A stretch of 64,000 nt of DNA, taken from the NCBI GenBank assembly GCA_008933995.1, contig WARS01000028.1, positions 1,499,501 through 1,563,500 on the forward strand, given 5' to 3'. This document shows positions 299 to 52,314 of this stretch, piece after piece (the stretch's first letter is position 1; each line of letters opens with the position of its first letter). Source of the stretch: Datnioides undecimradiatus. Taxonomy: Eukaryota; Chordata; Actinopteri; Lobotiformes; Datnioididae. The notes beneath the pieces were generated by a model. The model was not told where the DNA came from. It made no database searches and saw only the letters and a program-made list of their open reading frames with translations. The position numbers and the translations under genes are program-made.

Positions 299-3200
299 TT
301 CGTCCAGGAGGCTCTGAGCAAGAACGACACCGTGCTCCAGTTTTACTCCGCCGAATGACGCCTCGACAGCCAGTCCCTCAGGACCTTCCTCCATCTGGAC
401 TAGCGTCAAAGAGCAGCTGAAGAGCTACGACTACCACCCCGAGCCCACCTTCAACAAGCTCGCCAAGAACGTCATCACCGAGACCAGCATCATCATCGTC
501 ACTGTGAGCCGCCGCCGCCACGCTGTTTGCATGCATCGCGCCGCTCTTCATCTCTCATGTTCTGTTGAGTTCACTCTTCTTCTTCTTCTTCTTCTCCTCC
601 TTCTTCTTCTTCTTCTTCTTCCTCTGCTCCTCAGGGTCGAGGCTTCTCCAAAGCGATAGCGGCCAAAAGAAGAGGCTCAGGCGTTTGTCGGGGACGCCTC
701 CTGTCACGTCAACATACTGCAGGTGCACACACACACACACACACACACACGCCCAGAGCTGGGGTTTATAAAGGTGTGAATGTGGAGGTGATCCTCATCT
801 CTCTCTGGTAGCGGGGTGTCAAGGCGCTCCTCATTATTCTGCCTGTTCTGCAGCGTTGAGCTGAATTTAACAGATGAAAAGTTTCATTTCTGACTCCGAC
901 CAAACACCTTTTATCGAGTTCAGAGACAAAAACGGGGACTCTGGCGTCGCGGTGCTGAAAACACCGAGCTGGGAGCGTTTGGAGGCTTTGTAAAATCATT
1001 TTGCTGCTGTTTTAATTAATAAAACTCTTAATTAATGAGCTGCAGTCACCTAATCATGGCTGAAGCCCATGGACGACGGATATCACTGATAATCATTAAT
1101 ATGAGCTCGTGCAACAGTCTAACATCAGAGTCTAACGTCTCCTCTGTCTGCTTTCACCCGTGCGCAGGGCGACAAAGCTGATCCTGGAGATAAATGCGTC
1201 TCAGCCCAGAGCCGGAATCAAGCGCCAGCGCAAGAGACACAACCAACGACCTGCTGGACCTCGTGGTAAACATACACAATCAGTCGTGTTGTTTTAAAGG
1301 AGTTAAAAAGAAACAGCTGCAGGCTATCCAGCCTCAGAACGACCAGTTAAAAGCCAGTCTGGTCAGGATTAAGATCACAGGAGGAGGTGAGGATTAAGGT
1401 CAACAGTGCTCACCTTCCAGGGGCGTGTTTGAATCAGCTGGATTTTCGCACAGATGATATAATTATCTTTAAAGCTCATCACAAACAAAACATGACCCAG
1501 AGCCTGCCGTTTATCTCGTTTTAAAGTTACTTTCTGGATTAAAATTAATCCAGTGATGGTTGTCAAGCGCCAACTACTGTTGCAATCTTGCGAACAAGGT
1601 ACTGGTACTAATTAGTGCCCACTTTAAATGGCAGCTAATCTGCCAAAATATAAACAAATACAGTCCCACAGTTTTATGTAAAAAGGTTGGAAATGACCCT
1701 ATTGCAGGTGAAGTTCGGTCACGGCGAGTGGATGGTGGGTTCGGTCTACTACGCTAGGAAGGACGACATCCCCCTGGCCATCATCATCCCCGCAGTCATC
1801 GTGCCCATGCTGCTCTTCATCGCCGTGTCCGTCTACTGCAAGGTCGCGACCAGAACATTCACACACAGGTCGCGTTTGTTTTCCTGCCTCCGTCTTTAAA
1901 AGCTCCTCCCTCCATGTGCTTCCGCAAACAGGAGGAAAAGTCGCTGGCGGAAGCAGATGCTGAAGGTGAAGCGCAGCTGGAGAATCTGGAGGAAAGTGTC
2001 GCGACCGCTGCAGAAAAGAGTTCACAGGTGGCCGGCGTCACCTGGCGCCGCCGGAGTCACATAATGGCGTTATCCAGGTGCTATACGGTCTCGGCAGCGT
2101 GTTTGTGGCGATGCTGTAAAGCCCGGCGAAACTGCATGGGACCCGCTGCGGTTGTCGCGGAGCTGGATTCTAAACGCTTCGTCTCGCTGCAGATTAGAGG
2201 ACGCCGCCGCTTTGACAGTTTATCTCCATAATGTGAAGCCCCGCCAACGCGATTCAGCAGGAACGGGCTTTGGCTCCAGAACATCAGGCGCTTCCCCGCA
2301 GGTCCTCGGCGGGAGCTCGGTGGACCGTTTTCAACTGAAGTGTGACAGCTCTGTTACCGGGCACACTCTTCACATAATGAGCGCCTCGAGAAGAGACTTT
2401 AAGAGAGGGATGTTCAGGCTAGGTGGCTGCAAACTGCCGGGGCGTGAAGGCGTTAGGACAAAGCAAAAGGTTCAATGAAGACATACAATCCAAGTTTCTA
2501 GCAGCCAAATCCTGACCTGCTGTACTCTGTCGAGCTCTAACTCCTCTTCCTGTGTGTTTTGAACAGCAGTTTACAGTCTGGCAAGGAGTCGGTTGACCCC
2601 TGAACGTCTCAGTCACACAGAGATGAATAAAAGCAGCACTCGTCCTGTAGCTGAAGAGCTAATGGAGCCAGTCAGTGTGTGTGTGTCTGACAGACTCAGG
2701 TTGTTGTTGTCACATGATGAAACCTGCTCCTCTGTGTCCTGCTGCAGCTCAGCACAGTAGCTTTAGCTAATAGCATTAGCTGCAGCCTGTCTGCAGCAGC
2801 TCTCTCCAGTCTGCAGCAGCATGTTTCTTCAGGAAGTTGTGCTTTGGTTCAGGGTTTCTTCTCTTCTCTGGCTGCCAGTAGTCATCCCGGTTACACTGCT
2901 CCCTGCAGAGCTGATGGGCAGCAGCGACAGCGTGTGGACGGGAGCGTTAGCATCCGTTTGGAGCAACAACTAGCCGTGACTTCAGCCTGTCCTGACCCGA
3001 CAGAGGCGACAGAGCTGAGCTGTGTGTTGTGTGACGTGTTGCTGCCACAGGTCAGAGATGTGCAGCTATGAACCGTTTGGTTTCTGATCTTTTAGAGATG
3101 CTGAGCTACGGTTTCTGTCCTCCACAGCAACAAACTCTGCTCAGCTCCTCTCTCCTGCCAAGTTACTGAGAACGCTTTAAGCAGCACGAGTTAATATAAC

Positions 3201-5775
3201 AAACGTGAACAACCAGATATTTCATGATTCCTCTTTGTCAGATCTGATGATCGAGATGGAGGACCACACCAGCGACCTGAGCGAGGCCCGGATCCCCTTC
3301 CTGGACTACAAAACCTACACCGACCGGAACTTCTTCCTGCCCTCCAAGGACGGCGCCAATGACGCCATGATCACGAGGAAGATACAAATCCCAGAAGCTC
3401 GCCGGGCCATCGTGGCCCAGGCGCTCAACCAGTTCTCCAACCTGCTGAACAGCAAGCCCTTCCTCATCAACGTGAGTGAGACGCTTCAGTCGCCGCTCGT
3501 GTTTCAGCGGGCGGCGTGAGCTGCTAATTAGATATTAAATTAAATTACTCAGAATCAACTGAGCCTGTCATGCTCCTCAGAGGACGAGCCTGCAGCACCG
3601 TAGCACAAATCACTGAGAGTTTCTTCTTCTTTCCTGTAACATTCAGTTAAAAGCTGCAAGAAGAAGCTAAAAACACACTTTATTTCTAAGGAAAAGACTA
3701 AATTATGCTGCTGTCCTCGCCTGATGTGGCTTGATTTAGCTTTTTAGTTTATGCGTTTTATTATAATCCGCCCTCTTCTTCTTCTTCACTGGTCTGTTTA
3801 TCATGCTGAGTCACCTTCTGTTTGCACCAAAAGCTGCATAAATCGAGTTGAAGCTAAAAGCCGAGCTCTTCCTCCGCCCCACAGTTCATCCACACGCTGG
3901 AGAGCCGCCCCGACTTCAACGCCCGCGCTCGCGGCTACTTCGCCTCGCTGCTGACGGTGGCGCTGCACGGGAAGCTGGAGTATTACACGGACATCATGAG
4001 GACGCTGCTGCTGGAGCTGATGGACGAGCACGTGCAGAGCAAGAACCCCAAGCTGATGCTGCGGAGGTGAGGACGTGAGAAGACCCACTGATTTGCATTT
4101 GTTTACTGTTTGTTTAGGCTGTAAACACAGGAACACTCCTGACGCGTCACTGTGTCTGTGTGAATGTAGGTCGGAGACGGTGGTGGAGAGGATGCTCTGT
4201 AATTGGATGTCCATCTGTCTCTATCAGTTCCTCAGGGTAAAACACACTCGTCCTCTTCTTCTGTTGTTTTTACTTCTGTCTCTGTTCGATCTGTTTCTCC
4301 TCCTCCTCTTCTTCTTCTTCTCCTCCTCCTTCTTCTTCTGTTCCGTCACTTATAATTGCCTCTTAGCTGGAAGCCGCCGTGTGTCTGGGCTCTTTCTGAC
4401 AGCTGCGGCTGATTTTGCTGCAGCTGATGTTTCTATAATTTAACGCCGCGTTCACACTTGAGCTGCAGAACGAGTCGAGCACGGCCTGAATTCAGTCCCT
4501 CAGACAAGTAACTAAGTACTTTTACTCAAAACACAGCACTCACACACACACGAGAGCGACTTTAGTTCAGCTTCTAGCTTCAAAATCTGATGTTTCTGGA
4601 TAATTTGAGTATTTACAAACCAGACCATCAGCACCAACAACACTTAAGTAACTTTTGAGTAATATTATTAAACCCTGCCTGTGAGGAGGGAGCGCTTGAT
4701 TCGTCAAACATTTCGATCAGCTGGTTCCCGTCAAACCGGTGCGAGTCACCGACCCCGTTGGCGCTCTGGTTGCAGGACACGGCAGGGGAGCCGCTGTACA
4801 AACTGTTCAAGGCCCTGAAGCACCAGGTGGAGAAGGGGCCGGTGGACGCCAAGGTGAAGAAGGCCAAGTACACGCTGAACGACACGGGGCTGCTGGGAGA
4901 CGACGTGGAGTACTCTGTGCTGGTCAGTGCACGCACACACACACACACACACACACGCACACACACAGTAATGATCATTCACTCTATTCATGTGTGTGTG
5001 CGTGTGTGTGTGGTGTCAGACTCTGCAGGTGTTGGTGCACGGGGAGGGACCAGATGTGACTCCAGTGAAGGTGTTGAACTGTGACACCATCTCCCAGGTG
5101 AGCCCCCCCCCCCCCCCCACCCCGGGTCTTTGATGGCGTGCTGGTCCCCGGGGACGCTCAGACTCCCCGTCATACATACATTCATCACACGTGCTGCGTC
5201 TGAACAGCGCGGCCTTAAATCTGACCCCAAACCAGCCCGCGTCAGACGCTTTAACCAAACAGGAAGTGGATTGTTGGTGTTCATGCATGACTTTAAGCTG
5301 CGTGTGCTGCTGCAGGTGAAGGAGAAGATCATCGACCAGGTGTACAGGAACCTGCCGTACTCACTGAGGCCGAAGGTGGAGAGTGTTGCCCTGGGTACGA
5401 CTGACAGATCTTTATTTATTTATTGGCTGCACCTTAATGTCATTTAGATAACAAGTTGTTTATTAATCACGGAGGTAAATTCAACTGTTAAAGCAGCTGA
5501 AACGCAGAGAAATAAGGTGGAAACCTTCATTTAATCAGGCGACAGACTGATTTGAAGCAGCGCAGACACAGCAGAAGCACATTAAAGCGTCTCTGTGGCG
5601 ACTTTCCTGACACCCACGCGTTGTTCTGCTCCGTCCGCAGAGTGGCGCCCCGGCTCCACGGGTCAGATCCTGTCCGACCTCGACCTGACCTCGCAGAAGG
5701 AGGGGCGCTGGAAGAGGCTCAACACGCTGGCTCATTACAACGTGAGTCTGCCGCAGAGTCGGTGTTCCTGTTTTG

Positions 5776-5830
<55 letters not shown>

Positions 5831-6410
5831 ACCCACACACTCTGATGTCTCCTTGTTTTCCAGGTTCGGGACAACGCCACGCTGGTTCTGTCCAGAGTTC
5901 TGCACACGCAGTCGTTCCACCAGCACCAGGACAGCCACGAGGAGAGTACGTACACACACACTCACACACACACACACACTCTGATTGGTTCAATTCAGTT
6001 CACACCTGAGGTTCAACAAAGAGACTGAAAACAAACTGTCTCTCTCTCTGTCTGTCTCTCTCTCTCTCTCTGTCTCCCTGTCTCTCTCTCTGTCTGCCTG
6101 TCTCTCTCTCTCTCTCTGTCTCCCTGTCTCTCTCTCTGTCTGCCTGTCTCTCTCTCTCTGTCTCCCCGTCTCTCTCTCTGTCTCCCTGTCTCTCTCTCTC
6201 TCTGTCTGCCTGTCTCTCTCTCTCTCTCTGTCTCCCTGTCTCTCTCTCTGTCTCCCTGTCTCTCTCTCTCTGTCTGCCTGTCTCTCTCTCTCTCTCTGTC
6301 TCCCTGTCTCTCTCTCTGTCTGCCTGTCTCCCTGTCTCTCTCTGTGTCTCCCTGTCTCTCTCTCTCTGTCTGCCTATCTCTCTCTGTCTCCCTGTCTCTC
6401 TCTCTCTCTG

Positions 6411-6454
<44 letters not shown>

Positions 6455-8906
6455 CCTGTCTCTCTCTCTCTGTCTGCCTGTCTCTCTCTCAGAAAACTCT
6501 CTGCTGGAGGACGACAACACCTTCCACCTGGTGCGCCCGGCGGACGACATCGATGAGGTGAAGTCGAAGAGGGGCAGCATGAAGGACAAGGCCATGACCA
6601 AAGCCATCACCGAGATCTACCTGACCCGGCTGCTGTCTGTCAAGGTGTGTGTGTGTGTGTGTGTGTGTCAAGGTGTGTGTGTGTGTGTGTGTGTGTCAAG
6701 GTGTGTGTGTTCATTATATCTCAAACCCTCCATTTACCAGGCTCAGATCGTCCTCTTATACCTTTTTACCTCAAACGGTTGTTACAGCGTTACCGTTCAG
6801 AATCAGAGGAAACGTGCACAACAGATTTGAGCCTGTGTGTGTGTGTGTGTGTGTGCGTGTGTGTGTGCGTGTGTGTGTGCGTGTGTGTGTGTGTGTGTTA
6901 CAGGGCACTCTGCAGCAGTTCGTGGACGACTTCTTCCGCAGCGTGTTGTGTTCGAGCTCCGTCGTTCCCCCGGCCGTCAAATACTTCTTCGACTTCCTGG
7001 ACGAGCAGGCGCTGCGGCACGACAACGTGGACGAGGAGACGCTGCACATCTGGAAAACCAACAGGTGACTTTCTGTCAACAAACAAACAAAGAAAACAAA
7101 AACACAAACTGCAGGTGGGCTTTTTGCTGAATTGAATTAGTCCGTTAAAGTTTAAATTCAGGGTTTGAAACTCAGTGAATCAGGTTCTGACGACAAACAG
7201 CAAACGTTCCCATCGGAGAGCGTAAACAACAACAAAGCGAGAGTCTCACACGGATCAAAATCAGGTGGGAAAAGACTCGACTCTGATTGGTCGACGTGAG
7301 ACGCCTCCGCTGATTCAGCTGCGATCTGATTGGATGACAAAGAAGAAGAAGAAGCGATGCAGACACACAGATCTGTTTCCTTTAACTCCTCTGCCTTTAG
7401 ACCGGCCTGTCAATCATCTCACACACACACACACACAGTGGACCATGAATTGTCCATGAGCTGCAGTGAAAACGTAACTGCATTTACTCGAGTACACGGT
7501 TAAAGTACTTCAGACGATGCAGTAAATGAACAAACAACACAAACAAAACAAACAAACAAAACAAACAACACAAACAAAACAAACAACACAAACAAACAAC
7601 ACAAACAAAACAAACAAACAACACAAACAAAACAAACAACACAAACAAAACAAACAAAACAAACAAACAAAACAAACAACACAAACAACACAAACAACAC
7701 AAACCTGATTCATTTTCACTTCATTTGAATCTTTTTATGTCAAAAATTCTTCTTCAGTAAATTTATTTATTTATTTGTTTGTTTAGTCAAAGTTAAACTG
7801 CAGAACAGCTCAATACAACCGGTCATCATTGTTAACAAACAATCAACAACAACAATAGTTACTTTTAATACTCTAATTACATTTCCCTGTTAGTTACTAA
7901 CTTACAGCTCAGTCTGTTTGATCTGATTGTTAAAGGCTCATGATGTCAGTTCGTCAACGAGTTTCATGATTCAAGTCCTGATTCCACAAACTGTCTCTCT
8001 CTCTCTCTCTGCCTGTCTCTCTCTCTCTGCTCAGCCTGCCTCTGCGGTTCTGGGTGAACATCCTGAGGAACCCCCACTTCATCTTCGACGTGCACGTGAC
8101 GGAGGTGGTGGACGCGTCGCTGCACGTCATCTCCCAGACCTTCATGGACGCCTGCACCAAGACGGAGCACAAGCTCAGCAGGGTCAGTCACATGTCTACG
8201 TGTTGCAGTCTTTAGCTGAAAACACGTCCTCGGCCTTTGTGGCAGAAGCGTTAATTACAGCACCTTATCACAAACTGAACCCAGGACAGTTTGAAGGCGT
8301 CAGGGCCGATCAGCGGGGGGGCGTTTCCGAGCAGCTTCTCTGATCTGTCCTCTCGTTTCTCTCTCTGTGACTGCAGGAGTCTCCCAGCAACAAGCTGCTC
8401 TATGCAAAAGAGATCTCCACGTACAAGAAGATGGTGGACGAGTGAGTGAACAGATGTGTCTCAGAGAACAGCTGGGCTGCAGGCGGCGCCGTCAGTCCCC
8501 GAAAGTTTGCTCTTGACAGCAAAAAGTCCCGTTTTTCAAACTTAAGATGACGCGACAGCAGCAAAGTGTTGTTAATGTGCAGCAGCTGCAGACAAACGCA
8601 GTAACGACTTGATGATGAGCGGCGCTGATGTCACGGCGTGTTCCCGCTGCACTCAGCCGCTGTCAGAGGTCAGGACTCAGGACGCCTGCACACCTGCTGT
8701 CTCACCTGAGGAGCGCATCCCATGATGCATTCAAGGTCCGCTCGGACGAGTAGACGTCAGGTTGATCCTGACTGAGACGTCGCTCTCTGATTGGACAGTT
8801 TGGTCTTAACACCTGTGTTGAACAAGACACTATAAAACTACTGATTAGTTACTGGTTATAAAAGTAATCTGTTACTCTGGGAAGTAACCATTACATGTTG
8901 TTTGAT

Positions 8907-19956: not shown

Positions 19957-23154
<3,198 letters not shown>

Positions 23155-23171
23155 GATGACGCTGATGGTTC

Positions 23172-24669
23172 CTGCACACACACACTGATCAATGAATTGA
23201 TCATTCATCTCAGTAAAGCTCGCTGAAGGGAGCCGCTGATTTGCACCCACACTGCTGCTGCAGCGATCCCGGGAGCAGAAACTACTGTAACCACCAGTCG
23301 GCTGTGAACCGCCTGTCGTCTGTGATCAGCGCTGTGCAGACCGGGTGCCGTGGGTGTATCAGAGCCGAGCGAAGCTGCAGAGATGGGTGCAGACTTTGCC
23401 TGAGCGCCACCTTAAACGTTAAATATAGTAAACTTCAAAGCAAGTGAATCTAGAAATGTCAAACATGCCACCGTCCTGTAAGTAGAACCTTCTCATCAAA
23501 AGCTCTGACCTGTGTCTGACCTCTGAGGTGCTGAACCTCAGCTGACCCACACCTGCTGAGTCAAAGGTCAGTGCCTCCAGCATCCTCTAACACAGCCTGG
23601 ATGATTCCCACTGAAGAAACACACTCCTGCGCTGAGGTGACTCAGCGTGGAGTGGGGATGAAGCTCAATCGCTTTACAATCAAATTCAAATCCCACCGAC
23701 CAGAGCGACACCAATTATCCTGATGTCATGATGATGATTGACAGACTGAAATCTGACCTGAATTCAGTGCAGACAAATTCAATCCAGCACGAGAACAGCT
23801 CCAACGTGTCCCCGGTTCACACAGATGAAAACGGTTGGATTTCTCTGCTTTACACTGGAGGCTGATTCTGAATCAGCCTTTAAACGCCAAACATGAACAG
23901 CTTTATGTGTCTGTTTAAATCAAAACGTATTGTTTCTGCTGTGATAATGAAGCTTTGTGGTTGTTTTCTCCTTGTGCTGCGTGTTAGAGGAGCTCTGGGA
24001 ACTACAATTTTATGTTTTTCTTATTTTAAATGCAGCTTTGCAGGGTGGTTCAGCTTCAATTAGAACAGGCAGATTTGATTAACATGGAACAGAGTGTATA
24101 TTCAGTTCACAAATACCCAACATTTTAAAACAAACCAAAAGAAATCAGCAACTTTTTCAATTAACATTATGAAAAAATGCCCAAACTATAAAACTTAATG
24201 TTTCCTGCTTCTCAAAAATGAATATTTGATGTTTTAATAGATGTTTCTGGCTGGCTATAAGGATAAACTGAATACTTTTCAGATTTGGAATATTAATTGG
24301 ACAAAACAATATTTAAATATTTTCTGGCCACCTTATTTTTTACAAACATGCTGCTAAATGTGGACAAAATCACAAATCAAGTGTTTGAAAGCTCAGTGCA
24401 GTCAACTCTGCACCGCTAAAATACATGATTCCTGATAAAACCAGAGTAAAACCTAAACCTAAATCACTTTTGTTGGTTGTTAATTTTGTTTTCTTGGCAT
24501 CACAAACTTAAGAAACAACATCATGTAGCATGATTCAGTTACATGCCACCAAAAGTTTGCATATAAACAGTTTAAGAAGTTATTTAACAGTATTCACTCT
24601 CACCAAAATAAGTTTATTCATGGTCTGCAGTATTTCTGGACATTAATCAGACAGAAATTCAAATCTTAC
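23172..24669 (-). other. mdm2 intron upstream of the first coding exon
   Basis: Runs from the acceptor before the first coding exon (exon start 23171, preceded by GTGTGTGCAG on the gene strand) to the donor of the P2 leader exon at 24669. AT-rich; no further coding or structured element was recognised. Confidence 0.6.
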
Positions 24670-24735
24670 CGTTAATATGGAGCAGAAAGCATCAGCAGTC
24701 CATCCTGTGCAAGAAAAAGCAGATAAAGTGCCGTC
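24670..24735 (-). other. mdm2: mdm2 5' UTR leader exon (P2 type), inferred
   Basis: On the gene strand a TATA box at about 24769-24764 predicts transcription starting near 24735. About 66 nt downstream is a strong donor (CG then GTAAGA, border at 24670). The exon has no ATG that would add coding sequence in frame, so the ATG at 23154 remains the start. The start site is inferred. Confidence 0.5.
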
Positions 24736-24760
24736 AGAGTGAAGCAGAGAACAGCTGCAG

Positions 24761-24955
24761 CCTCTTATAGAGCTGCTCAGACATGTCAGGACTTCACCAG
24801 TCTCAGTGGCCTGGTCTAGCCTCGCCGGGGCCTATCAGGGCCGACCAGGGCTACTCCAGGCTGAGTCAGCAGCAGTGTGTTGTATGTACATGTGTGAAGT
24901 GACTCTACCAGCTGATTCAATCACACGGCTCGTGCAGGCATGTCGGGACTAGTCC
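24761..24955 (-). promoter_or_regulatory. mdm2: mdm2 P2-type promoter: two p53 response elements plus TATA box
   Basis: Distal element 24936-24955 (+ strand AGGCATGTCGGGACTAGTCC) matches 19 of 20 positions of two adjoining RRRCWWGYYY decamers. Proximal element 24779-24798 (gene strand GGTGAAGTCCTGACATGTCT) matches 17 of 20 and strongly resembles the proximal human MDM2 P2 element as I remember it. CTATAAG at about 24770-24764 lies about 10 bp downstream. In human, P2 lies in intron 1 with two p53 elements and a TATA box, and the arrangement here is the same. Occupancy by p53 is inferred. Confidence 0.75.
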
Positions 24956-25229
24956 AGGATGACTCATCGCTGTCAGAGTTTGATAACCAAACTAACCAGA
25001 ACCAATGACAACCACACTGACCAATGACAACCAGGGTTATATCAGAGATGAGACACAGCCTGACCGGAGTGTCTCCACAGCAGGACTGTCATCGGGCGTT
25101 TGGGAAAATAGAGAAGTGGTTAAAAATAAAAAAATCCACCCACGCATGAATTTCCTGTTACTTATTTGGGCAGCCCATCGAGTTAAATATAGTTCCACCC
25201 AGAAACAGGCGCTATACTTATTTAACTTA

Positions 25230-25283
25230 TTAGATAGATACTTTATTAATCCCAGAGGAAACTCAGGTGTCCAGCAGCATTAT
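25230..25283. mobile_element. Fragment resembling the 3' end of a teleost non-LTR retrotransposon
   Basis: TAGATAGATACTTTATTAAT followed by CCCAGAGGAAACT matches, from memory, the ACTTTATT.ATCCC..AGGAAATT tail common to fish LINE and derived SINE copies. No reverse-transcriptase frame is attached, so it is at most a truncated copy. Confidence 0.4.
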
Positions 25284-25799
25284 TGTCTTTCTATAAGCCT
25301 GCCTGAAAATGTATTTCTAAATCAGCACACAGTCTGCAAGAGACAGGCCAGACAAAACTTTATTGTTTTATGTATAATACTGAAAGTTTTCATACTTTTA
25401 AGACTTGGACGAATAATTTGTTAGACTGACAGACAGAGCGCTCCACGTTGTCTGTGGGACAGAGAGATGAGTTTAAATGTAAGAGTGAAATAGAAACTTC
25501 AGACAGCTGTTAAACAACAGCCCTGCACACAAACAAGCCTGAATGAGTAAACAAACAATCATAATAATCCTATAAATAATAATCTATCAGTCTGCCTATC
25601 AGGGAAATATTTTGATGTTTTCAGAAAACAAATATTTGAGACATCAAATTTTAAATATCAAATGCATAATCAGATTACTATAAAATAAATTCTATTTATA
25701 AATAATATAAAATTTAGTTGAGTGTCTGTCTCTGTGGAGTACACAGCAGACAGACTGTCTGCTCAGCCACAGGGCAGAACATCCTGACCCAGGGGTTTT

Positions 25800-25814
25800 G
25801 GGGGGGGGGGGGGG
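25800..25814. repeat. Poly-G run
   Basis: Fifteen consecutive G. The count is unreliable, and the run is capable of forming quadruplex-like structure. Confidence 0.85.
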
Positions 25815-27196
25815 CACATGACATAACAGACATTTGTAATCGAGACTGAGGTTTGATTAAAGAGCTAATCGATCATGAACAATAAGGTTAAACTGGATGA
25901 TGCATGTTGCATATTTACTTGTAATAAACCTTTAAATTTACAATATAATCTATAATCTTCTCTTCTCTGGCCGGTGGATACCTCCTCTTACGCGTCTGTC
26001 TGCAAGACACTGACTGTCTGAATGAGACCTTACAGCCAAAATGTGCATTTTATTTTTAAATGGCCAATCGCAGACCGTTCAGCCCGGTTTGGCCTTTGTG
26101 TGTAAATATGTCTGGGCAGATGTCTGAGTGAGTGCACGGGGGAAATGACTCGTCACACACAGCGGACAAACAGCGTGACTCAGCTGCTCCACAGTACAAC
26201 ATTACAACACAAACGTGTGCAGTGAAAATATGCCCAGACTTGTCCCGCACTACTCTCCCCCACCCTCGCTCGCGCTCTCTCTCTCTCTCTGTGTGACATC
26301 ACCCACACACCTGATGAAGGCAGATCACATCCCATCACCCTGTCAGGATGACCGCAGCGCCAGCACATTAACTCACACCGCTAGATGTGATTAAAGATCA
26401 CTGAAACTGAAACTTAAGACTGAAACTTAAGTTCAAACGGCTGACGGACTTCAAGTCAAGTGAATCTTTACTCTCTTAAGATGCTAACAATACATCTATT
26501 CCAGCTTGATCGCTGCTTTAAACTAATTTATAATTGATAAACTAATGTTAAATCTACCGTTGCCATGACTTCGCCCGATAAAACACCATCTCCCCCTAAA
26601 AGCAAACCTAAAGTGACATAATTACACTTGCCGATAAGTTAGCTAGCAGGCTAAAAACAAACACTCAAGTCTGCCCAAACTCAAGTTTAACCACCGCATT
26701 CACGACAGTGGGACGATTTCAGACTCGCTATATTCCAAGCAAAAACACTGGTGCCATGGCGGTTACATATACATTTTGTAGTTTACGTTGAAACTAAGAA
26801 TAATTTCAACCTGAAGTAGCTATTTTAGGTAGCTTGCTAACGGCTAGCCGATAGCTAACCTATAGTAGCCAACCGTTAGTCAAACTACTCGGCTATAGCT
26901 ATTTAGCTAATGTACGAGACTTATTGCGAACTTAAAAGCCGTAAACAAAATTTGAAACTGATGAATTTCAGTCCCTCGACCTAAATTTAGACGTTTTCAA
27001 CCCCTTTAAAAAAAAGTTCCGGATCTTGGCAAACAGAGAGGGCCGCGTCGCTGCTCCTCGTTCGGCTTCTACTTGGCCAAGAAAACACAAGGCTGCGCGG
27101 CCTGCTCACATCCTGCTAACCACCTGCTATCTGCTGCTACTACAGTTGTTACAAGATAAAGGCCTGGCATAGTAAACCAAACCAGCATCCACCTAC

Positions 27197-27300
27197 CTTA
27201 TAAGTTATTTTCGATAAAATAATAAAATCCACAAACAACGTTCAACTCCCAGTTTCGCGCCGGACAGTTACACCACCAGAGTCGCTGTGTTAACTGCTTT
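27197..27300 (-). promoter_or_regulatory. mdm2: Candidate mdm2 P1 promoter and leader exon
   Basis: On the gene strand a GC-richer block (27000-27330, locally rich in CG) includes a good donor, CTTATAAG then GTAGGT, with the exon border at 27197. A spliced leader starting near 27290 would join the acceptor at 23171. This fits the two-promoter layout of vertebrate mdm2, with P1 constitutive. No TATA is needed for such a promoter and none was seen. The start is inferred. Confidence 0.35.
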
Positions 27301-28445
27301 TCTGTTGTTCCTACAGTGGGTAATGTGGCGCCCCAGCAGGCGGAGCACTGACACTGCAGCTAGAGATTCATTACAGTCATTGTTATTTTTCAAATTTGAT
27401 TAAAACAAAGGGAAAAAACCCCACGCGCATAGTTTGAATATTAATGGGATATTAATTTAAATGATTTTATTCTGTTGTGAGGTAAATTCTCTTTAAACAC
27501 CTAATTTACTGTTCATACTCTGAGCACGGCTGCCTGCTGGAGCCACGTGTGCCGGCTTCAGTCTGAGCTCGTGTGTCACATGAGTGATGATGAGCTGAAA
27601 TGGTTCACTTTGCTCCCGGTAAGCATCTTATTGTCAGATTTTAGAGTAGTAAAACTAAATGATTTACATGATATAAACCCATGAGTCACTGTCAGGAAAT
27701 GCTAAAACATATATGCGTGATCCAGTAAATCTGAGTGTAACATACAAGATACTACCCTCAAACCAAAGTTCCGCATTATCCGTTAATTAAATTCAGCGAC
27801 TTTGTGCAAATAATTCACTTTTTTTCTTGAAATACTGGCTGCTTCTTTTTTCAGTGCAGTGGTTTTTAACTCATTGTCAAAATAAGACAGAATTAAATGC
27901 GAGTCCTGCTCCTGAAACATTAAAACCTTTATCCAAACAATGCTGACCTTTTTCTTAAAGTTTCTCCATTAAATGCTACAGCTTTCCTGAAAATCGACTT
28001 GTTTTAAATATTCCACTTTTAATCTAGAAAGAATAAATATATTGTGAATTATTTAGTTTTTAAGGATTTACAATTTGACTGTTTCTCAGAAATTATTTTA
28101 TTCTCAAAATTACTGTAATATTAATGACTCAACTCCCCAAATCAGATACTTTTCCTTTGTAGTCACTCTAATAGTATCAGTATACAGTATTTTAAGTTGT
28201 GAATATCATCTGTCTGCAAAACATGCCTTTTACTGGTGGTACTGATATCACACCTCTAAATGAATTTTATCATCTTTATAATGTAATTAGATAAACCCAC
28301 TGCACGTTAACACTTACACACTTGTGGTTTGATCACATTTTAAAACAAAGACTCTCTCATGCAGGTAAATGGCAGCAGTGAACTCTGCAGTGTTGGTGTT
28401 ACTGGTTTAAATAAAGTTTACAGAAAACCACAACAGGAAAAAAAA
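27301..28445. other. Intergenic DNA between the mdm2 promoter and the nup107 3' end
   Basis: AT-rich, no supported feature. Confidence 0.5.
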
Positions 28446-28451
28446 TGCTTT

Positions 28452-28457
28452 TATTTT
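28452..28457 (-). terminator. nup107: Probable nup107 poly(A) signal
   Basis: TTTATT on the + strand (AATAAA on the gene strand) about 85 nt after the stop codon gives a very short 3' UTR consisting largely of a CA repeat. Confidence 0.55.
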
Positions 28458-28491
28458 GCAAAAAAGATGAATACAATCAAATAAGACAACA

Positions 28492-28494
<3 letters not shown>

Positions 28495-28539
<45 letters not shown>
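28495..28539. repeat. (TG)n microsatellite abutting the nup107 stop codon
   Basis: About 22 TG units end immediately before the stop codon position 28540. On the gene strand the repeat is the first thing in the 3' UTR. Confidence 0.95.
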
Positions 28540-28540
<1 letters not shown>

Positions 28541-31373
28541 CACGGCTGTAACTCGTAGCCCAGTGGGTCGAGTCCTCGGTCTAACAGAGAGAGCGACGAC
28601 TCGCGCAGCTTCTGAAGGAACCTCCTCAGCTCCTCTTTAGAGAAAACCTGGTCGTGTGGAGAGAACGAGGCACAAAACACAACATTAACAAATATGGCAA
28701 CAAGAGCAAACTGCTCCCAGAGAAGATTCAAAAAGAAGACCATTCATTGTATTACCTGATAGAGGCGGTGCTGGTCGGATGAGATGATGTCAGCGAGTCG
28801 CAGCGCCTCCTGGTGTCTGGAGGAGTTCTGCAGCACGCTGAGCAGCAGGAAGGTGAGGCGAGGCAGGCACAGTGAGCGCAACGCCACCATCTGGTGGCTG
28901 CGCTCCGAGTCCTGCTCTGCATCCTGAAAACACAAACAATCCACTCATCAAACAAACAAACATGGAAATGAATCACTTGCCGAGTTAATTAGACAGAGTT
29001 TAAAGCTGCAGAGTATTTGATGTTTTTTTTGATTGAAACAAACTGAAAAACCATATTTCATGTCGACAGTCACCTGTCTGTTGTCGATCATCCATCCTCC
29101 ATCCACGAACAGCAGCACGTTGTAGATCCTCTCTTTCACGTCTTCAGTTAGGACGTCCAGACGGCTCGACCAGGCAGCCAGGGACGCCTGAAACACACAC
29201 ACACACACACGGGAACACTAAAATTAACATTTTACATTGATTTATTAACACAATCATATGTTATAATGATAGACAAGCTGTACATATGAAAAACTATATA
29301 CAGGAACTTACCTGGTACTCCTTCTCTCTCATCTCATTGGCTACTCTCTCTGTGAATTTGGCCTCAGGAGCAGGTGCAGGCTTCTGAGGGGCGGAGCTGC
29401 TGTGGCTGAACCAGTCAGTGAACGCCTCGTGGGCTTCCTGTGAGATCATTGAAAGGCACGTTCAGATCAATAAAACATACTGATCGATTGAATCAGAACT
29501 TGTCATGATTAGCACCACGAGTGTTTCAGTCAAATCGTTCGACACCTCGGTGGTGTCTTCTACACTTTGGTTAGAGGTGGTTAATTTCCTGTATTACAGT
29601 ACGAGTCCAGAGTCGAGTGACAGACCAGGTAGGCTCTGATGCACAGGTGTTCCCTGATGGCGTTCTCGTCCTCAGGAGACGTCGCGGTCTGACCCGTCCC
29701 CGCCCACTGGCAGTAAATCTCCCTCATTGAATCCTCGGGAACCTTGGAGAACACCGCCTTGGCTGCGTCGTGCTTCTGCAGGGCTGAGAGACAAAGAGAC
29801 AGACAAGCAGTCAGGAGCAATGCATCATGGTCCTCACCGAGGTGCCCGCACGTGTGCTGCATTCGAGTGACGTGTGACTCGGTTTGTTTTCAGTTTAATT
29901 TGAACATTTGATTGTTCGGCATGTGATCGGTCCACAGCCATGACTGACGAATAAATAAACAATATGAAAATCCAAGAAGTACCCAGGAACTTCCTCATGA
30001 TGGCGTTGGACTGCTTTAGGGACTCGGCTCGATGGGCGGGGTCAAACAGCAGCCAATCAATGATGTCGATCTTCTTCAGGTCCTCCTATCAGAGCACAGC
30101 ATCACAGTGAGTGACAGAGCAAAACGCCAATGCTGCCGTGTGACTCGGTTTGCTTGTTCGTCAGACTCTGCACCTTAGTCGTTCCCATCTCCAGCGTCTG
30201 GTTGTGATGCGTGAACTCCGTCTCGTCTCGCTCTCTCACCGTCTCCACCACCAGCTTGGTGATGGCAGCAACATCCAGACCTACAGAAACCAAAACCAGA
30301 TCAGTTTTCTGCTGAGTCATGTTTCTTACCGGCCTCAGTTTGTGTGTTCCTGTCTCACCTGCTTCAGTGGCGAGCTGTAGGCAGCGAGGGCGCAGCTCCG
30401 GTTGGGTGACGGTCTCCAGGAAGGTGGCGTACTGAGCAGTGGCGATCTCGGCCGGCAGCTGGCTGACGTAGCTCGCCACGAGGTCGGTCTGCTGATCCCG
30501 AATCAGCAGGGACACGTACGCCTTCAGCACATCCACACACACCTCCTCCTGGCAGAGACAGAGAGGTAGGTTTAATGTTTTAATGTTTCATTTTAAACCT
30601 TTTAACATAATCATGTTTCACTGAAGTAAGTAGGGTTCATCCTCTGGGGACTATGAACGTCCTTTTTGTCAATCTTACCTTCAGAGCTAAACCCAGAGAG
30701 CGGAAAAACAGCAGCAGGTGACTCATGAAACGCAGCAGGTGGGAGGGGAGGGGCTTAGAGGCTGTCAGCCAATCAGAGAACTCCTCCAACAGACCTGAAA
30801 GAGACAGACAGGTCAAGGTTTCAGGACTGTCTTCAGTTTGGTTTGATACTGTCTTTAGAGGTCGGGGGGGGGGGTCTCTCTCACCATCCAGGTCTCCCAG
30901 GATGACAAACTTCTGGATGATGTGGTAATGCTCTTTTGTCTCCTCCAGCACCCTCTGCGCGCACGCACAGACACACACACACACACACACGCCAAGACGC
31001 TGGTTTTATGGTGGGTTTGGTCACGTGACTTTCACCAATCACATGCAGTTAATGTGCGAGTCTCACCTTCGACTCTGAGGCTTGAAGTTCCTCGAACACC
31101 TTCTCCATGGTCCAGCTGTGGAGACACACAGACAGTTCAACGATCAGAGAGATCTCAGTGTTTCTGCTCTCCATGCAGGTTCATTCATAAAAGTCCAGGA
31201 AGTGATGTCAGCCAGGTCGTACTTGGCCTCCAGGTATTCTCGTGGCAGCGTCTCCACTTCGTGGTGGGCCATTCCTGATGACATCAGATCCTTCTCCACC
31301 AGTGAGTCGACCATCACTCTGAAGTGCGCCCACACGCAGTCCTCCCACGATTCACACACAGCCAGGAGCTGAG

Positions 31374-37472: not shown

Positions 37473-39834
<2,362 letters not shown>

Positions 39835-43098: not shown

Positions 43099-44178
43099 GT
43101 AAACCTTATCATTTTACAACGGTATTTGCTCGATAATTACAATTGTTAGGTGGAGATTTATGGGGTAATTTACTGTGGCTTCACACTACAACGACCTATC
43201 ACGCGCTAACTGCTAATTTAACGCTGTCAAAACATTTGTTTACACTAGTTCCGTTCGTTCGGTTAAGTGGCCTAGCTAAACGGGCTAGCAATGACACGTT
43301 AGCTCCGTTTTTATTATGAATTTGTGTACACGTTGGAAATATTGCGGCATCTTTCAAACACTTTAAAACGGACTGTCATCTTCACTGATGCCCGAAGCTA
43401 ACTGTTTGGCCACATGACGAGTATAAAAGAGCTAAAGTGATAATGCTAGCAGGTGCAGTGCGGCTAACGAGCGGTAGCTTCAACGAAGCTGCTGCGTGGG
43501 TGTGTGTTAGACTAACGTAACTGTTGCCTGTGGAGTTTGTGGTTGAAGAATTGAATCAGAGTTCATTTTAATGTTCTCAAATAACACTGGATATAAACGT
43601 ACAGTTTATATTCCGTGTTACTTGTCCTTGAGGATAAACGCAACATAATGCATTTTGTTTACATCGAATCAATCAAATGTAGAGGCTGCACTGTGCTTGG
43701 CATGAAAATGGAAAATATACAGATATGAAATCCTATTTTAAATCAAAGCGAAATTTGAAAACCACGAACGTTTACATCAGGTCATGCATTTTATAGCCCC
43801 AGTGTGTGCATCATATTATTATTATATATTTGAGTAAAAGTCGTCCTTTTGTTTGAAGAATGAGCAACTTCTTTTTTGCATAAAACAGTATATGCGTTTA
43901 CATCATCTACTGCTATTGTCAGAGTAAAAATATATAATCTCATGTCCTGCACTAAAAGAGATAACAATCAAGTTCCCAAGTTGCTATTATATTTCCTTAC
44001 CGAAGTAGCCATTTTTGATGTGGATTCATGTCCTTCTGTAAAACCCAAATATTGGTTTGTTATTAGAAGGAAATAATGAACTAATAAAACTGACCTCTAA
44101 AGTTTGGTTTGTGTTCTACAAGTTCATTCTGCGGTAGTTAGTGTTGTTAAGAATCTTTTCTTGTTGTCTTTCCTCAGT

Positions 44179-47100
44179 ATGCCTGCTGAACGCAAGCGCT
44201 CAGTGAACATGGACGAAAAAGACGTTTGCTCCTTCAGCAACAAGGAAAAAGAGAAGGACAGAGACGGTGAGAGGAGGCCGGCAGCGGCTCGAGACAAAGC
44301 CAAAGACGAGGCCAAAATGAGCGGTAAAAAGGACGGCGGCAAGGAGGAGAAGAGAAAGCGTCTGGAGGAGGAAAAGAAGAAGAAAGAAGAGAAAGAGCGA
44401 AGAAAGAAGGAGGAGGAAAAACAGAAAGCGGAGGAGGAGCAGAAGAAGAAGGAGGAGGAGGAGAAGAGACAGCAGGAGGAGGAGGAGAGGAAGCTGCAAG
44501 AGGAGGAGGCCAAAAGACAACGAGAGGAGGAGGCAGCTCTCCTGAAGTGAGTGATGGTGAAGATGTAGACGTGTTACAGCCTCTACAGATGAAATGTGTC
44601 TTTTGTATTGTCGTTGTTTGCATACTAGAAAAACACAGGAGGGGATTTTTACATTAAAATGAATAAATGATTAATGTTTGACAGCACGTTGAGATCAGGA
44701 CTTGTGCTTTGGTAGAAGAGACTCTAAAATGAAGCGTTGCATTTACTGTTCTCCGTCAGCTGTATGTTTCCTGCATCAAGCCTGCGCAGTAGAATGTACA
44801 AGTTATGTCATAAGAAAGTTGAACCCGATGCAACTTCTCCCTCTTTCACTGTTGCCTTGGTTTCATATTTCTTTATTTCACCTGATTTCTGCAGGGAGAA
44901 GGAGGAGGGGCACCAGCTGCACCAGGAGGCCTGGGAGCGCCACCAGTGCAGGAAGGAACTCCGCAGCAAGAACCAGAACGCCCAAGAGGGTCGGCCCGAA
45001 GAGGCCTTCTTCAGCCGACTGGACTCCAGCCTTAAAAAGAACACCGCCTTTGTGAAGAAGCTGCGTACGCTCACTGAGCAGCAGCGAGACTCGCTGTCCA
45101 ATGACTTTGCCTCGCTCAACCTCAGCAAGTACATCGGAGAGGCCGTGAGCTCCGTCGTGGAGGCCAAGCTGAAGATCTCCGATGTGGGCTGCGCCGTCCA
45201 TCTGTGCTCCCTGTTCCACCAGCGGTACGCCGAGTTTGCTCCGCTGCTGTTGCAGGCCTGGAAGAAGCACTTTGAAGCGAGGAAGGAGGACAAGGCGCCC
45301 AACGTGAGCAAGCTGCGCACAGACCTGCGCTTTATCGCAGAGCTGACCATCGTTGGCCTCTTCACAGACAAAGAGGGCCTTTCGCTCATTTACGAGCAGC
45401 TGAAGAACATTATTGGGACCGACCGGGAGACTCACACTCACGTGTCGGTGGTGATCAGCTTCTGTAAGCACTGTGGGGACGACATTGCCGGTCTGGTGCC
45501 CCGCAAAGTGAAACTGGCTGCAGAGAAATTCGGCTTGACCTTCCCACCGAGCGAGATAATCAGCACAGAGAAACAGCAGCCCTTCCAGAACCTGCTGCGG
45601 GAGTACTTCACATCGCTCACCAAACACCTGAAGAAGGACCACCGCGAGCTGCAGAACACCGAGAGGCAGAACAGGTGAGTTTCTCTCACAGGGGACATCT
45701 GTCTCTCTGTCGCGTCTTGTTGTTCACTCTGATACAACCTCGACTCTGCTCCTCTGCAGGCGAATCCTACATTCCAAAGGGGAGCTGAGCGAGGACAGGC
45801 ACAAACAGTATGAAGAGTTTGCCACTTCCTACCAGAAGCTGCTGGCCAACACTCAGTCCCTGGCCGATCTGCTCGATGAAAACATGCCAGAGCTGCCTCA
45901 GGACAAGACTGTGCAGGAGGGTGCGTGAGCTCTCCTCTCCAGAACCACACTGAGATCAACAGTGGTTGTTTAACATGCCGCCTGTCTTTTAAATGAAGTC
46001 CGGCAGCGACTCCTGTGAGGTGAGCGTGTGCGTAACGTTGTCTCCTCTCTGCGCTCTCCAGAGCACGGCCCCGGCATTGATATTTTCACCCCTGGGAAGC
46101 CTGGAGAGTACGACCTGGAGGGAGGGATCTGGGAAGATGAAGACGCTCGCAACTTCTACGAGAACCTGGTGGACCTGAAGGCCTTCGTCCCGGCCATCCT
46201 CTTCAAGGACAACGAGAAGAGCAGCCAGGGCAAAGACAAGGACGATGCCAAAGGTATGTTTGATGAAGCTCCTGACAGATTAAAAAGAGATTCCCACTGA
46301 GTTTTCCTCTGACTGTGCTGCTGTGTCTGTCCGGTTCAGACGGCAGGGAGGGGAAGGATGCAGCCAGCACCACAGAGGAGCTGGAGCTGGAGCTGGAGGC
46401 TCTGGACATCGCAGATGAACCTCTTGAACTCGAGGGACCAGACGAGGCAGAAAATGAAGAACTGGCCAAAAAACTCCTGGATGAACAAGGTGAACGTGCA
46501 CCGCTCACCACATAACTCTGTGCATCAACACAGAGACTGCAACAGTACAGGGTTTAATGACGTGCAGCTCTATGCTCAGAGATGTTCTTCTGAAAGTCTC
46601 TGTCGTCTGTTTCTGATTCTTTTTGTAGAACAAGAGGATGAGGAGGCCAACACTGGCTCCCACCTGAAGCTAATCGTGGACGCCTTCATCCAGCAGCTCC
46701 CCAACTGTGTCAACAGAGACCTCATAGACAAGGTAAGGAGAAGGCAACAAGAATGACTTGACGTCAATGTGGCGTCTGCACTGTGTGGAAGACACAGATC
46801 TTCTGCAACATGATTCGCTCAGTGATTAATCTCAGCACCAGTGTCGACACTTACGAGCTCCCTGTTCAAACCACAGGCTGCCATGGACTTCTGCATGAAC
46901 ATGAACACCAAGTCCAACAGGAGGAAGCTTGTGCGAGCCCTCTTCACCGTCCCCAGGCAGAGGTAACGCTGCGCTGCTGCATTAACGCGGCACCGGTCAG
47001 AGGAGATGCAGATGCAGAGTTATCTGCAGAAAGCACCAGCAGGGGGTGCTCTCGTCATAAGTAATGACACTGACTTTCTGCCCCTGCAGGTTGGACCTTC

Positions 47101-47547
47101 TGCCCTTCTACTCTCGCCTGGTGGCAACTCTTCATCCCTGCATGTCAGACGTGGCCGAGGACCTCTGCTCCATGCTGAAGGGAGACTTCAGGTTCCATGT
47201 AGGTCCCTGCTGTTGCTGACTGCCGTGTAACGTCCTCGTGATTTCCAGCCTTTTTATTTTAAGTGATGCCGTCTGACTGCTGTTTGTTGCCGTAGATTCG
47301 GAAGAAGGACCAGATCAACATCGAGACGAAGAATAAAACGGTCAGGTTCATCGGGGAGCTGGCCAAGTTCAAGATGTTCTCAAAGACGGACACGCTTCAG
47401 TGTCTCAAGGTGGGTGAAGAACCTGCACACCTGCAACTGAATCCCCAGAGATCTACCTTTACACTGGGTCTGAAGATAAACTCCAACAGCATGAGAGCAG
47501 ACCTCCACAAGTTTAATGTGCATAATGTGAAAATAATCTTCTGTGTT

Positions 47548-47580
<33 letters not shown>

Positions 47581-50500
47581 GTTCGACAGATGCTGCTGTC
47601 TGATTTCACCCATCACCACATTGAGATGGCCTGCACGCTGCTGGAGACCTGCGGCCGCTTCCTCTTCAGATCCCCCGACTCTCACCTGCGCACCAGCGTC
47701 CTGCTGGTTAGTACCCGTCACCGCCGCCGCGGCCGGATCGAGTCAGAGCAGCGCCGAGCACGACACAGGAGAGAACAGCAGAGCTAACAGTGACTGTGAT
47801 TATGTTCTGACTGATCGCACAAAGTCTGAGCAGCTTTGTTTCACGCTCCACCTGATACCGAACGTATCAAACATCAATATTCGTTAAAGGTCCCGTTCAG
47901 ATTTTTGTTTTCAGTCGTAGTTTTAACATAAACAGCTGATGTTCTGTCAACTGCTGTCCTGTCCAGGAGCAAATGATGCGCAAGAAGCAGGCCCAGCACC
48001 TGGACGCGCGCTACGTGACGATGGTGGAGAACGCCTACTACTACTGCAACCCACCGCCCGTGGAGAAGACGGTGAAGAAGAAGCGCCCGCCGCTGCAGGA
48101 GTACATCCGCAAGCTGCTCTACAAGGACCTGTCCAAGGTCACCACCGAGAAGGTGCTGAGGCAGATGCGCAAGCTGCCTTGGCAGGACCCTGAGGTGAAG
48201 AGCTACCTGATCTGCTGCATGGTCAACATCTGGAACGTCAAGTACAACAGCATCCACTGCGTGGCCAACCTGCTGGCCGGGCTGGTGGCCTACCAGGAGG
48301 ACGTGGGCATCCACGTGGTGGACGGGGTGCTGGAGGACATCCGGCTGGGCATGGAGGTAAAGGCAGCTGCTGAGGTCGGGTAACAAACCAAACCTGCTGC
48401 TAATCTTTACTGACAGCTCCGCGTGGCCGTCGCCGTGCGAGGAACAGTTACATGTTGCAGAACCTGTGAGCCGAGCTGAAGGCATGAGGGTTTACACAAC
48501 ACCTAAAACCGTCTCACGTGGTCGAATCTGCAACTGGGATAACAAGAGTGACAGCAGGTCTCAGATCAGATCAGTCCTGAAATGGGTCCCAACATGGTGC
48601 CGCTGGTCAGCAGGTGATCCAGAGTTTAGCTCTGAAGCTTTTCCAGCAGACACCAGGACCAAGTCTGCAGCGGTCGTTTAACACCGTGACTCATGATCAG
48701 TGAAAACAGCTTAAACGCTGAATCAGAGTCTGACCTCAGGTCTGCTTTATCAACACGATCTGATCAGGGAGTTTACTGATTGTGACACATGATGCTTCTG
48801 TTTACAAACCTCGGTCTGTGGAGTTTTCTCATAAACTACAGACGCAGTGACGCCGGCTTCAGGCTGCAGCGCACTGTCACGGTGATGTCAGAAAAGTTCA
48901 GATTTACAGGTTTTAAAGGTGCAGTGAGCAGGACTTAGAGCGATCTGTTGGAAAAGATCAGAATTCATAATGATGTTGGGAATCATGTTGTTATTGTTAT
49001 TATTATTAGCTGAGCAGAGAGGAAGCAACCTGCTGACATTGACCCTCCATGCTTGTACAGGAGCCCAGAATGGTCAAACCAAGCATTTCCTGCTTGTGAA
49101 ACTGACTCGATTGATTATTGATGGTTAATTATGAAAACAGTGAGTCAGCAGATTGTCTCAGCTCTACACTGCAGATGTGAATCTGACAAACAGTGTCTGT
49201 GCAGCAGTAATTCAGTCAGTAAGAACAAGTGTAACAATATAAGTGTGTCGTTTTGTGCACAAAGCAGGATTTTTAATGCAGGATTCAACATGTAATCGAG
49301 TATTTTTACAGGCTTGTTTGGCTGCTTTTTGCTACAGTAAAGTAATCGATTACTTTTCCCACCCTCAGGTCAACCAGCCCAAGTTCAACCAGCGGCGGAT
49401 CAGCAGCGCCAAGTTCCTGGGCGAGCTGTACAACTACCGCATGGTGGAGTCGGCCGTCATCTTCCGCACCCTGTTCTCCTTCATCTCGTTCGGGGTGAAT
49501 CAGGACGGCAGCCCCAGCTCGCTGGACCCCCCGGAGCACCTGTTCCGCATCCGCCTGGTCTGCACGCTGCTCGACACCTGCGGCCAGTACTTCGACCGCG
49601 GCTCCAGCAAGAGGAAGCTGGACTGCTTCCTCATCTACTTCCAGGTATGTGGGCTCGCTCCGCACCCGGGTTGTAGTTTCATATGGCAGATGATGTCAGT
49701 CAGTGACGCGATGCTGCGTGTGTCTGCAGCGCTACATCTGGTGGAAGAAGAGCGTGGAGGTCTGGACCAAAGACCACCCGTTCCCCATCGACATCGACTA
49801 CATGATCAGCGACACCCTGGAGCTGCTCCGGCCCAAGATGAGGCTCAGCTGCTCCCTGGAGGAGGCCACCAAGCAGGTGGTCGACCTGGAGCGGGAGGTG
49901 CTCATCAAGCTAGGTACGAGCCGCACGCTGAGCGCACGTCTGCAGTTAAAGTCTAAATGTGGCAGGTAGTTAGCGCGAGCGTGCGGATGTGAGCGTGGCA
50001 GCCGGTCGCACCGGTCCGGCCGCTCTCTGTCGCTCCGGCTGAGCAGCATTCCCCGCAGCGTAGGAGGGCGACGGCGCTGCATCAGTCCTCGCTCTGCTTC
50101 GTCTGTCAGACGGGTTCAGCTCCATGAAACACACACATACCGAACACATACAGTCACTGAGCCGAGGGCGGGCAGAGCTCAGGAGCGAATTAAAACAGGC
50201 GACGTCGGAGATTTGGAGCCACCAAAAATGCTGCAGAGCCCGGAGACGCGGAGGAGGAAGCAGCTCTGGCTTTGTTTCCCAGTTTCAAGGTGTTGACTTG
50301 GAATGTGCAGACGTGTGTGTGTGTGTGAGAGAAAGTGATTGACGGGCCCAGTCGCGGCCCCTCAGGCTCAGACACTGGAGCCGTTGTTGCTCGTCTTCAT
50401 ACGTGAACCGGGATCAGTCCGACTCAGAACCAGCCGCTCGCCCGGCTTCATTTCTCCGCCGTCGCCACATCTGCTCAGTCGCGCTCTGTGACTGGCTGTT

Positions 50501-52314
50501 CCTCTCACCAACACGAGAACACATGACACAACTCCCCGCCGACTGTTTGTTCTATTTATAACCAGAGCTTCTGCTCATGATGTAATCTGTCATAACTACC
50601 CGTGTGTAATCTGATTACTGCGCCTACACCGTCGTCCCTGCAGTTTGCTGTGTTTTTACTGACTCTTGAGTTTCCTGCTCACGCTGTGCGTTTTCCCGAA
50701 GGCCTGGCCATGGAGAAGGACGGCCGCTCCAGCGCCATGAGCGAAGGCGACGGCCTGGACGAGGAGGACGACGACGGCGACGACGACGAGGAGGGAGGCG
50801 CCGAGACCGAGGAGCAGTCGGGCAACGAGAGCGAAATGAACGAGCAGGAGGAGGATGTGAGTGTGTTCGCTGCCCAGAACTACTTCCTGTTTGACATCAT
50901 GTGACATCATGTGACATCGTGTATCTAAAACGATGTCGGACCCAGAGTCATTCGTCCGTCCGATGAGCTGAAGCGTCCGTCATCTAACCAGCTGCTCCCG
51001 TTTGTTTCCCGCAGGAAGGGTCCGAGAACGAAGAGGAGGAGCGGGAGGAAGAGGAGGAGGAGAACACCGACTATCTGACCGACTCCAACAAAGAGAACGA
51101 GACGGATGAGGAGAACAATGTAAGATCCACAGGAGCGGCTGCAGACCGGAGATGCTCGGTGGTCACCGTGGTGATCAGCATCATGACCTCAGGACGAGTC
51201 AGATTTGAATTTAGCCGACTCGCTGAATAATAATTAGCGATTTGTGTTGGTGTGCTGCCGCCTGCAGGAGGTGACCATCCGCGGCGGGGGGCTGAAGCAC
51301 GTGGCCTGTGCCGAGGACGAGGACTTCATCCAGGCCCTGGATAAGATGATGCTGGAGAACCTGCAGGTATGAAATACACGAACACGGCAGGCTGAACACG
51401 ACGCAGTGTGGTGTTTTACAGGCTGAATCCACAGTCGAAGGTTTACCTGTTTGCTTCACACTGTTCTTACACAGTTGTGTGTTTCCCTGTTGAGCTGCTG
51501 CAGCGACAGGGAACTGTCTCCTTCAGTATCGAAGCTCTGAGCTGACTGACAGTGTTGGTGCTCAGAGAAGTGTGACGCTGTGCTGCTGGAGCTCTGACAG
51601 GTGTTTCTGTGCAGTCAGTTAACCCAGGTGTACCTAACAAACTGGCATCTGAGGAAGGTCCTGCTCAAAGTCACAGGAACAGATTTATTGGTTTAGCTCA
51701 TGAGAAAGTGAGGAACCTGAGAGAGCGACGCCTCCGACGAGTGATTACACGACTGCTCTGTGCCGTGAGAGATGAGTTATTCAGCTGCAGCAGTGAACAG
51801 TGAAGAAGTAAACATGGGAATGATTCGTTCGTAGTTTCCCAAAGCTCACACCTTCAGATGTTTTATGAAGTGAGTCCTGATTCACACCCTGCCCCTCTCT
51901 GCCCCTCTCTGCCCCTCTCTGCCCCTCTCTGCTCTCCTCTCTGCCCCTCTCTGCCCCTCTCTGCCCCTCTCTGCTCCTCTCTGCCCCTCTCTGCTCCTCT
52001 CTGCCCCTCTCTGCTCTCTCTGCCCCTCTCTGCTCCTCTCTGCCCCTCTCTGCCCCTCTCTGCTCCTCTCTGCTCTCTCTGCCCCTCTCTGCCCCTCTCT
52101 GCTCTCTCTGCCCCTCTCTGCCCCTGCAGCAGCGAAGCGGTGAGACGGTGAAGGTGCACCAGCTGGACGTGGCCATCCCGCTGCAGCTGAAGAGTCAGCT
52201 GAAGAAGGGCAGCTCCGGGCAGCCGTGCATCGGGGAGGGAGACTCGGACATCTCCGACACCATGCAGTTCGTCATGCTCACACGCAAGGGCAACAAGCAG
52301 CAGGTAAAGGAGTG

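Follow-up and report, generated by a model that had tools for sequence, protein, structure and literature searches.

A probable p53-inducible internal promoter of mdm2 in the fish Datnioides undecimradiatus, with a mammalian-like proximal element and an altered layout

The window considered here is the whole analysed stretch of 64,000 nucleotides from Datnioides undecimradiatus (contig WARS01000028.1). It contains the mdm2 gene on the minus strand, with nup107 upstream on the same strand, which is a neighbour of MDM2 in human too. The coding features recognised in the window are the following:

23171-23107, minus strand: exon carrying the ATG of mdm2 (23154), with splice acceptor and donor recognised in the sequence and predicted splice joins
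23013-22939 and 22846-22713, minus strand: two coding exons with the p53-binding SWIB/MDM2 domain (sequence and Pfam)
19957-20511, minus strand: last coding stretch of mdm2, with the Mdm2 RING (stop codon 19957-19959)
28543-29862, minus strand: nup107 (Pfam Nup84_Nup100)
37473-37895, plus strand: triose-phosphate-transporter-like protein, read as slc35e3 (Pfam, below cut-off)
44101-49953, plus strand: MIF4G repeats, read as upf2 (Pfam)
3181-3516, plus strand: plexin cytoplasmic domain (Pfam)
61399-62922, minus strand: SARG-family end, read as proser2 (Pfam)

Tandem arrays are also present at 6036-6490, at 51889-52125 (10-bp unit, 23.8 copies) and at 54003-54108 (perfect 39-bp unit, 2.7 copies). 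Searches of the window for Rfam families and tRNA genes gave no match; a scan for bacterial promoters and terminators, a method inapplicable to fish, gave nothing.

The first-pass annotation of this DNA had named the downstream gene mdm2, an identification which the protein comparisons uphold: the gene is mdm2, not mdm4. The joined N-terminal fragment finds its best PDB match in Mdm2 chains (1e-33), and the RING of the last exon matches Mdm2 at 1.4e-31 at best, versus 1.4e-16 for the best Mdm4 entry. In Pfam, the SWIB/MDM2 and RING domains score over the cut-off and the RanBP zinc finger under it (23.4 of 27 bits). The start-codon exon is preceded by an acceptor and lies about 1.5 kb downstream of a predicted leader exon, above which three candidate p53 response elements are found on the mdm2 strand:

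24955-24936, minus strand: distal p53 response element GGACTAGTCCCGACATGCCT, spacer-free, 19/20 consensus positions, cores CTAG and CATG
24798-24779, minus strand: proximal p53 response element GGTGAAGTCCTGACATGTCT, three-quarter-like, 17/20
26226-26245, minus strand: third candidate p53 element GGACAAGTCTGGGCATATTT, 19/20, second core without its G

For the distal element, the coordinates and the consensus count without spacer given at first reading are exact. Spacer-free sites matching at least 19/20 positions occur twice in the window, versus a mean of 0.18 and a maximum of 3 in 60 order-1 Markov windows, and the element is unusual by this count. All sites were also scored with a symmetric p53 matrix built from 20 published natural elements (PMC5905954 Table 1), MDM2, synthetic and spacer-containing elements being excluded. 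The distal element ranks first of the 63,981 window positions, above all 20 training elements; it stays first in every leave-one-out run at all three pseudocounts, and its score is reached by no position in 60 order-2 simulated windows. This score needs caution, since one of the two cores is CTAG, described as the weakest p53 core type (PMC4323202, excerpt), a weakness invisible to a base-by-base matrix. Among the 24 known elements compared, hFAS is the nearest (15/20); RE1 of the MDM2-P2C element reaches 14/20 and human RE1 12/20. Homology of the distal element to mammalian RE1 is thus unsupported, RE1 scoring no better than unrelated elements.

The proximal element is unremarkable by consensus count, since the number of spacer-free sites with 17/20 or better is what chance predicts (21 in the window versus a mean of 20.8 in 60 order-1 Markov windows). 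Consensus counting was therefore dropped as proof of this element. It departs from the consensus three times, with T and G at positions 3-4 of half-site 1 and with T as the first base of half-site 2. By the p53 matrix, a check which the first-pass annotation had proposed, it ranks third of 63,981 positions, a score reached by 0.75 positions per window in 60 order-2 simulated windows; its leave-one-out ranks are 3-10, 3-6 and 3-4 at pseudocounts of 0.5, 2 and 8, respectively. When known elements are held out, usually 1 to 3 window positions score equally high, and 10 in the worst case. The proximal element behaves similarly and so looks like a weak real element.

Its strongest resemblance is to MDM2 elements. 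When 24 known elements are compared with it in either orientation, the best match is RE2 of the MDM2-P2C element, which we take to be the mouse element (17/20, 16 contiguous bases). RE2 of human MDM2, in the version given by PMC4323202, is second (16/20, 10 contiguous bases), and the other elements do not exceed 14/20. The proximal element had been described as very close to the proximal human MDM2 P2 element, odd first half-site included, and this description holds: in the fish element and in both MDM2 RE2 elements, the first quarter of half-site 1 is without its core C. Of 150 simulated 64-kb windows, 6 match the MDM2-P2C element somewhere at 17/21 or better, and the likeness is telling mainly because of its location, 9 bp above the mdm2 TATA box. 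Judged by its sequence, the proximal element is of the MDM2 RE2 type.

The third candidate site, absent from the first-pass annotation, lies 1.3 kb above the distal element and ranks second of 63,981 by the matrix, a position kept in all leave-one-out runs. By the matrix, the best three sites of the 64 kb are thus all upstream of mdm2, within 1,467 bp; three places chosen at random would have a probability of about 0.0002 of all lying in 24670-28540. The positions ranked 4 and 5 by the matrix share part of their sequence with the distal and proximal elements. The gap between these two elements (24799-24935) is exactly 137 bp, and human P2 is given as RE1-n17-RE2 (PMC4323202, excerpt, Table 3), so that the earlier wording "much further than in human" stands.

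Below the proximal element, the sequence carries the parts expected of a core promoter and of a short spliced leader:

24769-24764, minus strand: TATA box TATAAG
24736-24743, minus strand: initiator-like TTCACTCT, with predicted start A24740
24670-24740, minus strand: predicted non-coding leader exon of 71 nt, with donor ACG/GTAAGA at 24670/24669 (slash at the junction)
24692-24703, minus strand: uORF1 ATGGACTGCTGA, inside the predicted leader
24672-24692, minus strand: uORF2 ATGCTTTCTGCTCCATATTAA, inside the predicted leader

TATA box and initiator are at a normal distance below the p53 elements, with 29 bp from the first T of the TATA box down to A24740. The order described at first reading (two p53 elements, a TATA box, then a leader with its donor, all on the mdm2 strand) is indeed complete, with exact coordinates, and the series also includes the initiator and, further down, the coding exon; splicing of the leader is predicted from the donor. 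The last base of the uORF1 stop codon is also the first base of uORF2 (TGATG), and uORF2 stops two bases short of the splice donor. The predicted leader also contains a strong acceptor-like sequence, TTTTTCTTGCACAG/G, at 24704 on the minus strand.

Further upstream, the stretch around 27.2 kb may contain a candidate P1 promoter and exon 1 of mdm2, as suggested by three sequence features. AAG/GTAGGT, at 27197/27196, is the sole stringent donor-like sequence in 24600-28540; an E2F-like site lies some 55 bp above it, at 27253; and the CpG observed/expected ratio is raised at 26.2-27.8 kb. If this stretch were exon 1 of P1, the p53 elements and the leader would lie in intron 1, which is the location of mammalian P2 (PMC2576335, excerpt).

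Other motifs surround the p53 elements:

24966-24960, minus strand: AP-1 site TGAGTCA, 4 bp above the distal p53 element
24868-24862, minus strand: TGACTCA, another AP-1 site, located between the two p53 elements
25001-25033: 14-bp repeat containing CCAAT, in two copies 19 bp apart

The first AP-1 site overlaps an ETS-like GGAT core (AGGATG on the plus strand, 24956-24961). The regulators described for human P2 are Sp1, p53, Ap1-ETS and MYCN (PMC2576335, excerpt); no GC box was found in 24670-28540.

Our preferred reading, to which we give a probability of about 0.85, is that this feature is the P2 promoter of fish mdm2, that is, an internal and p53-inducible one. Several other explanations have to be weighed against it. 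Chance matching of the p53 sites, with the mdm2 gene of this fish induced via other elements, looks very improbable. It would account for the 21 sites of at least 17/20, which are no more than expected, and for the 6 of 150 simulated windows in which the MDM2-P2C element is matched equally well, but hardly for the three best sites of an independent matrix all lying upstream of mdm2. Another unlikely proposal concerns the leader, which might be an internal cassette exon (24704-24670) of upstream P1 transcripts, the p53 elements then serving as an intronic enhancer acting on P1. The acceptor-like sequence at 24704 does raise this prospect of an internal exon: its polypyrimidine tract and CAG/G make it one of 16 such sites at equal stringency on the whole minus strand, and the features near 27.2 kb would provide the upstream promoter. 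Such an exon would nevertheless leave a correctly spaced TATA box and initiator directly above it, 9 bp below a p53 site, and mammalian P2 itself starts in intron 1. Uses as a first exon and as a cassette exon may also coexist.

A division of labour between the two p53 elements is conceivable too, though we consider it rather doubtful. The distal site and the adjoining AP-1/ETS-like sequence would then form a mitogen and stress enhancer, and only the proximal site would drive basal p53 output. This proposal is consistent with the AP-1 site that overlaps an ETS-like core at 4 bp from the distal element, with the second AP-1 site between the elements, and with the Ap1-ETS regulation described for human P2 (PMC2576335, excerpt). 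Against it, AP-1 sites are about as frequent in the window as expected (18 versus 17.7), and they cluster only modestly around mdm2: 8 of the 18 lie in 5.6 kb (22646-28131), with p 0.005 in a post hoc analysis assuming uniform placement.

Under the P2 reading, the elements with their matrix ranks, the TATA, initiator and donor sequences and the gene are directly seen. By analogy with the mammalian promoter and with zebrafish, we infer that p53 binds here, that transcription starts and the leader is spliced as predicted, and that a feedback results. An activated p53 tetramer would bind the strong distal element and the weaker, three-quarter-like proximal one above the TATA box. Bound p53 would raise the rate of transcription starts near 24740; the leader, short and non-coding, would be spliced to the exon carrying the Mdm2 start codon, and the resulting Mdm2 would restrain p53. 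Studies in zebrafish count mdm2 among the target genes of p53 and show it rising together with others of them (PMC11166285 and PMC2958845, excerpts). Zebrafish p53 is also active in yeast on the human MDM2 P2 elements and tolerates weak sites (PMC4323202, excerpt).

As for evolutionary origin, the proximal element and the TATA box probably go back to a common ancestor of this fish and mammals, to which the distal element is probably not recognisably traceable. Deep conservation is suggested through the mammalian elements printed in papers, and for the proximal site only. The loop between p53 and Mdm2 is a standard textbook example of feedback. Provided that the proximal element is truly orthologous, evolution has preserved its weak first half-site ever since the fish-mammal split, which would suggest that the response of the loop is set by a site whose weakness is deliberate; the changed spacing would in turn reveal a dispensable part of the promoter architecture. 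To a broader, tentative model we give somewhat less than even odds. The proximal three-quarter site and the TATA box would be the ancient frozen core of the p53-Mdm2 loop, common to fishes and mammals, while the second p53 input would be free to turn over, being here a separate, stronger site 137 bp off that is joined to an AP-1/ETS-like sequence, with another site 1.3 kb up. The two overlapping uORFs (TGATG) would throttle translation of the p53-induced mRNA itself, unlike in mammals, where the inducible transcript is not known to be throttled in this way.

A literature search, with most subscription journals outside its scope, returned no account of p53 elements in a fish mdm2 promoter, which is weak evidence of absence; a zebrafish target-gene paper (PMC5007497) has the word mdm2 twice, both times in its reference list. 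Sequence collections that are fish-free by design, in which a lack of relatives is uninformative, were searched as well. In microbial contigs, 70 stretches matched the pattern of the mdm2 RING exon and none was confirmed; in viral contigs, none of the 7 stretches matching the N-terminal fragment was confirmed. The combined pattern of proximal element and TATA box occurs in 7 viral contigs, inside open frames of 160-830 codons, and these matches were taken as chance.

Compared with known systems, this is most likely a known kind of promoter in a fish, with an altered layout. As in mammalian MDM2 P2, two p53 elements stand above a TATA box and a short non-coding exon, AP-1/ETS-type sequences are close by, and the proximal element is nearly identical, sharing the odd first half-site. 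The likeness covers the proximal site and probably the position of the TATA, not the distal site. The two elements are 137 bp apart here versus 17 in the mammalian promoter; the distal one is stronger by the matrix and not specifically RE1-like; a third site is present 1.3 kb further up; and the leader carries two uORFs. What stands out is thus the large distance between the elements, a strong distal site next to an AP-1/ETS-like one, the presence of a third site, and a leader with two tandem uORFs. An RE1-type distal element at about 17 bp is regarded here as a mammalian feature, and is not taken as defining for all vertebrates. The p53 element of PUMA (BBC3) has 10 contiguous bases, AAGTCCTGAC, in common with the proximal element, but the match is 14/20 only and it belongs to another gene in another setting. 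Xenopus laevis mdm2 provides another non-mammalian mdm2 promoter with a putative p53 element, which is reported to respond to both human and Xenopus p53 in yeast (PMC4323202, excerpt).
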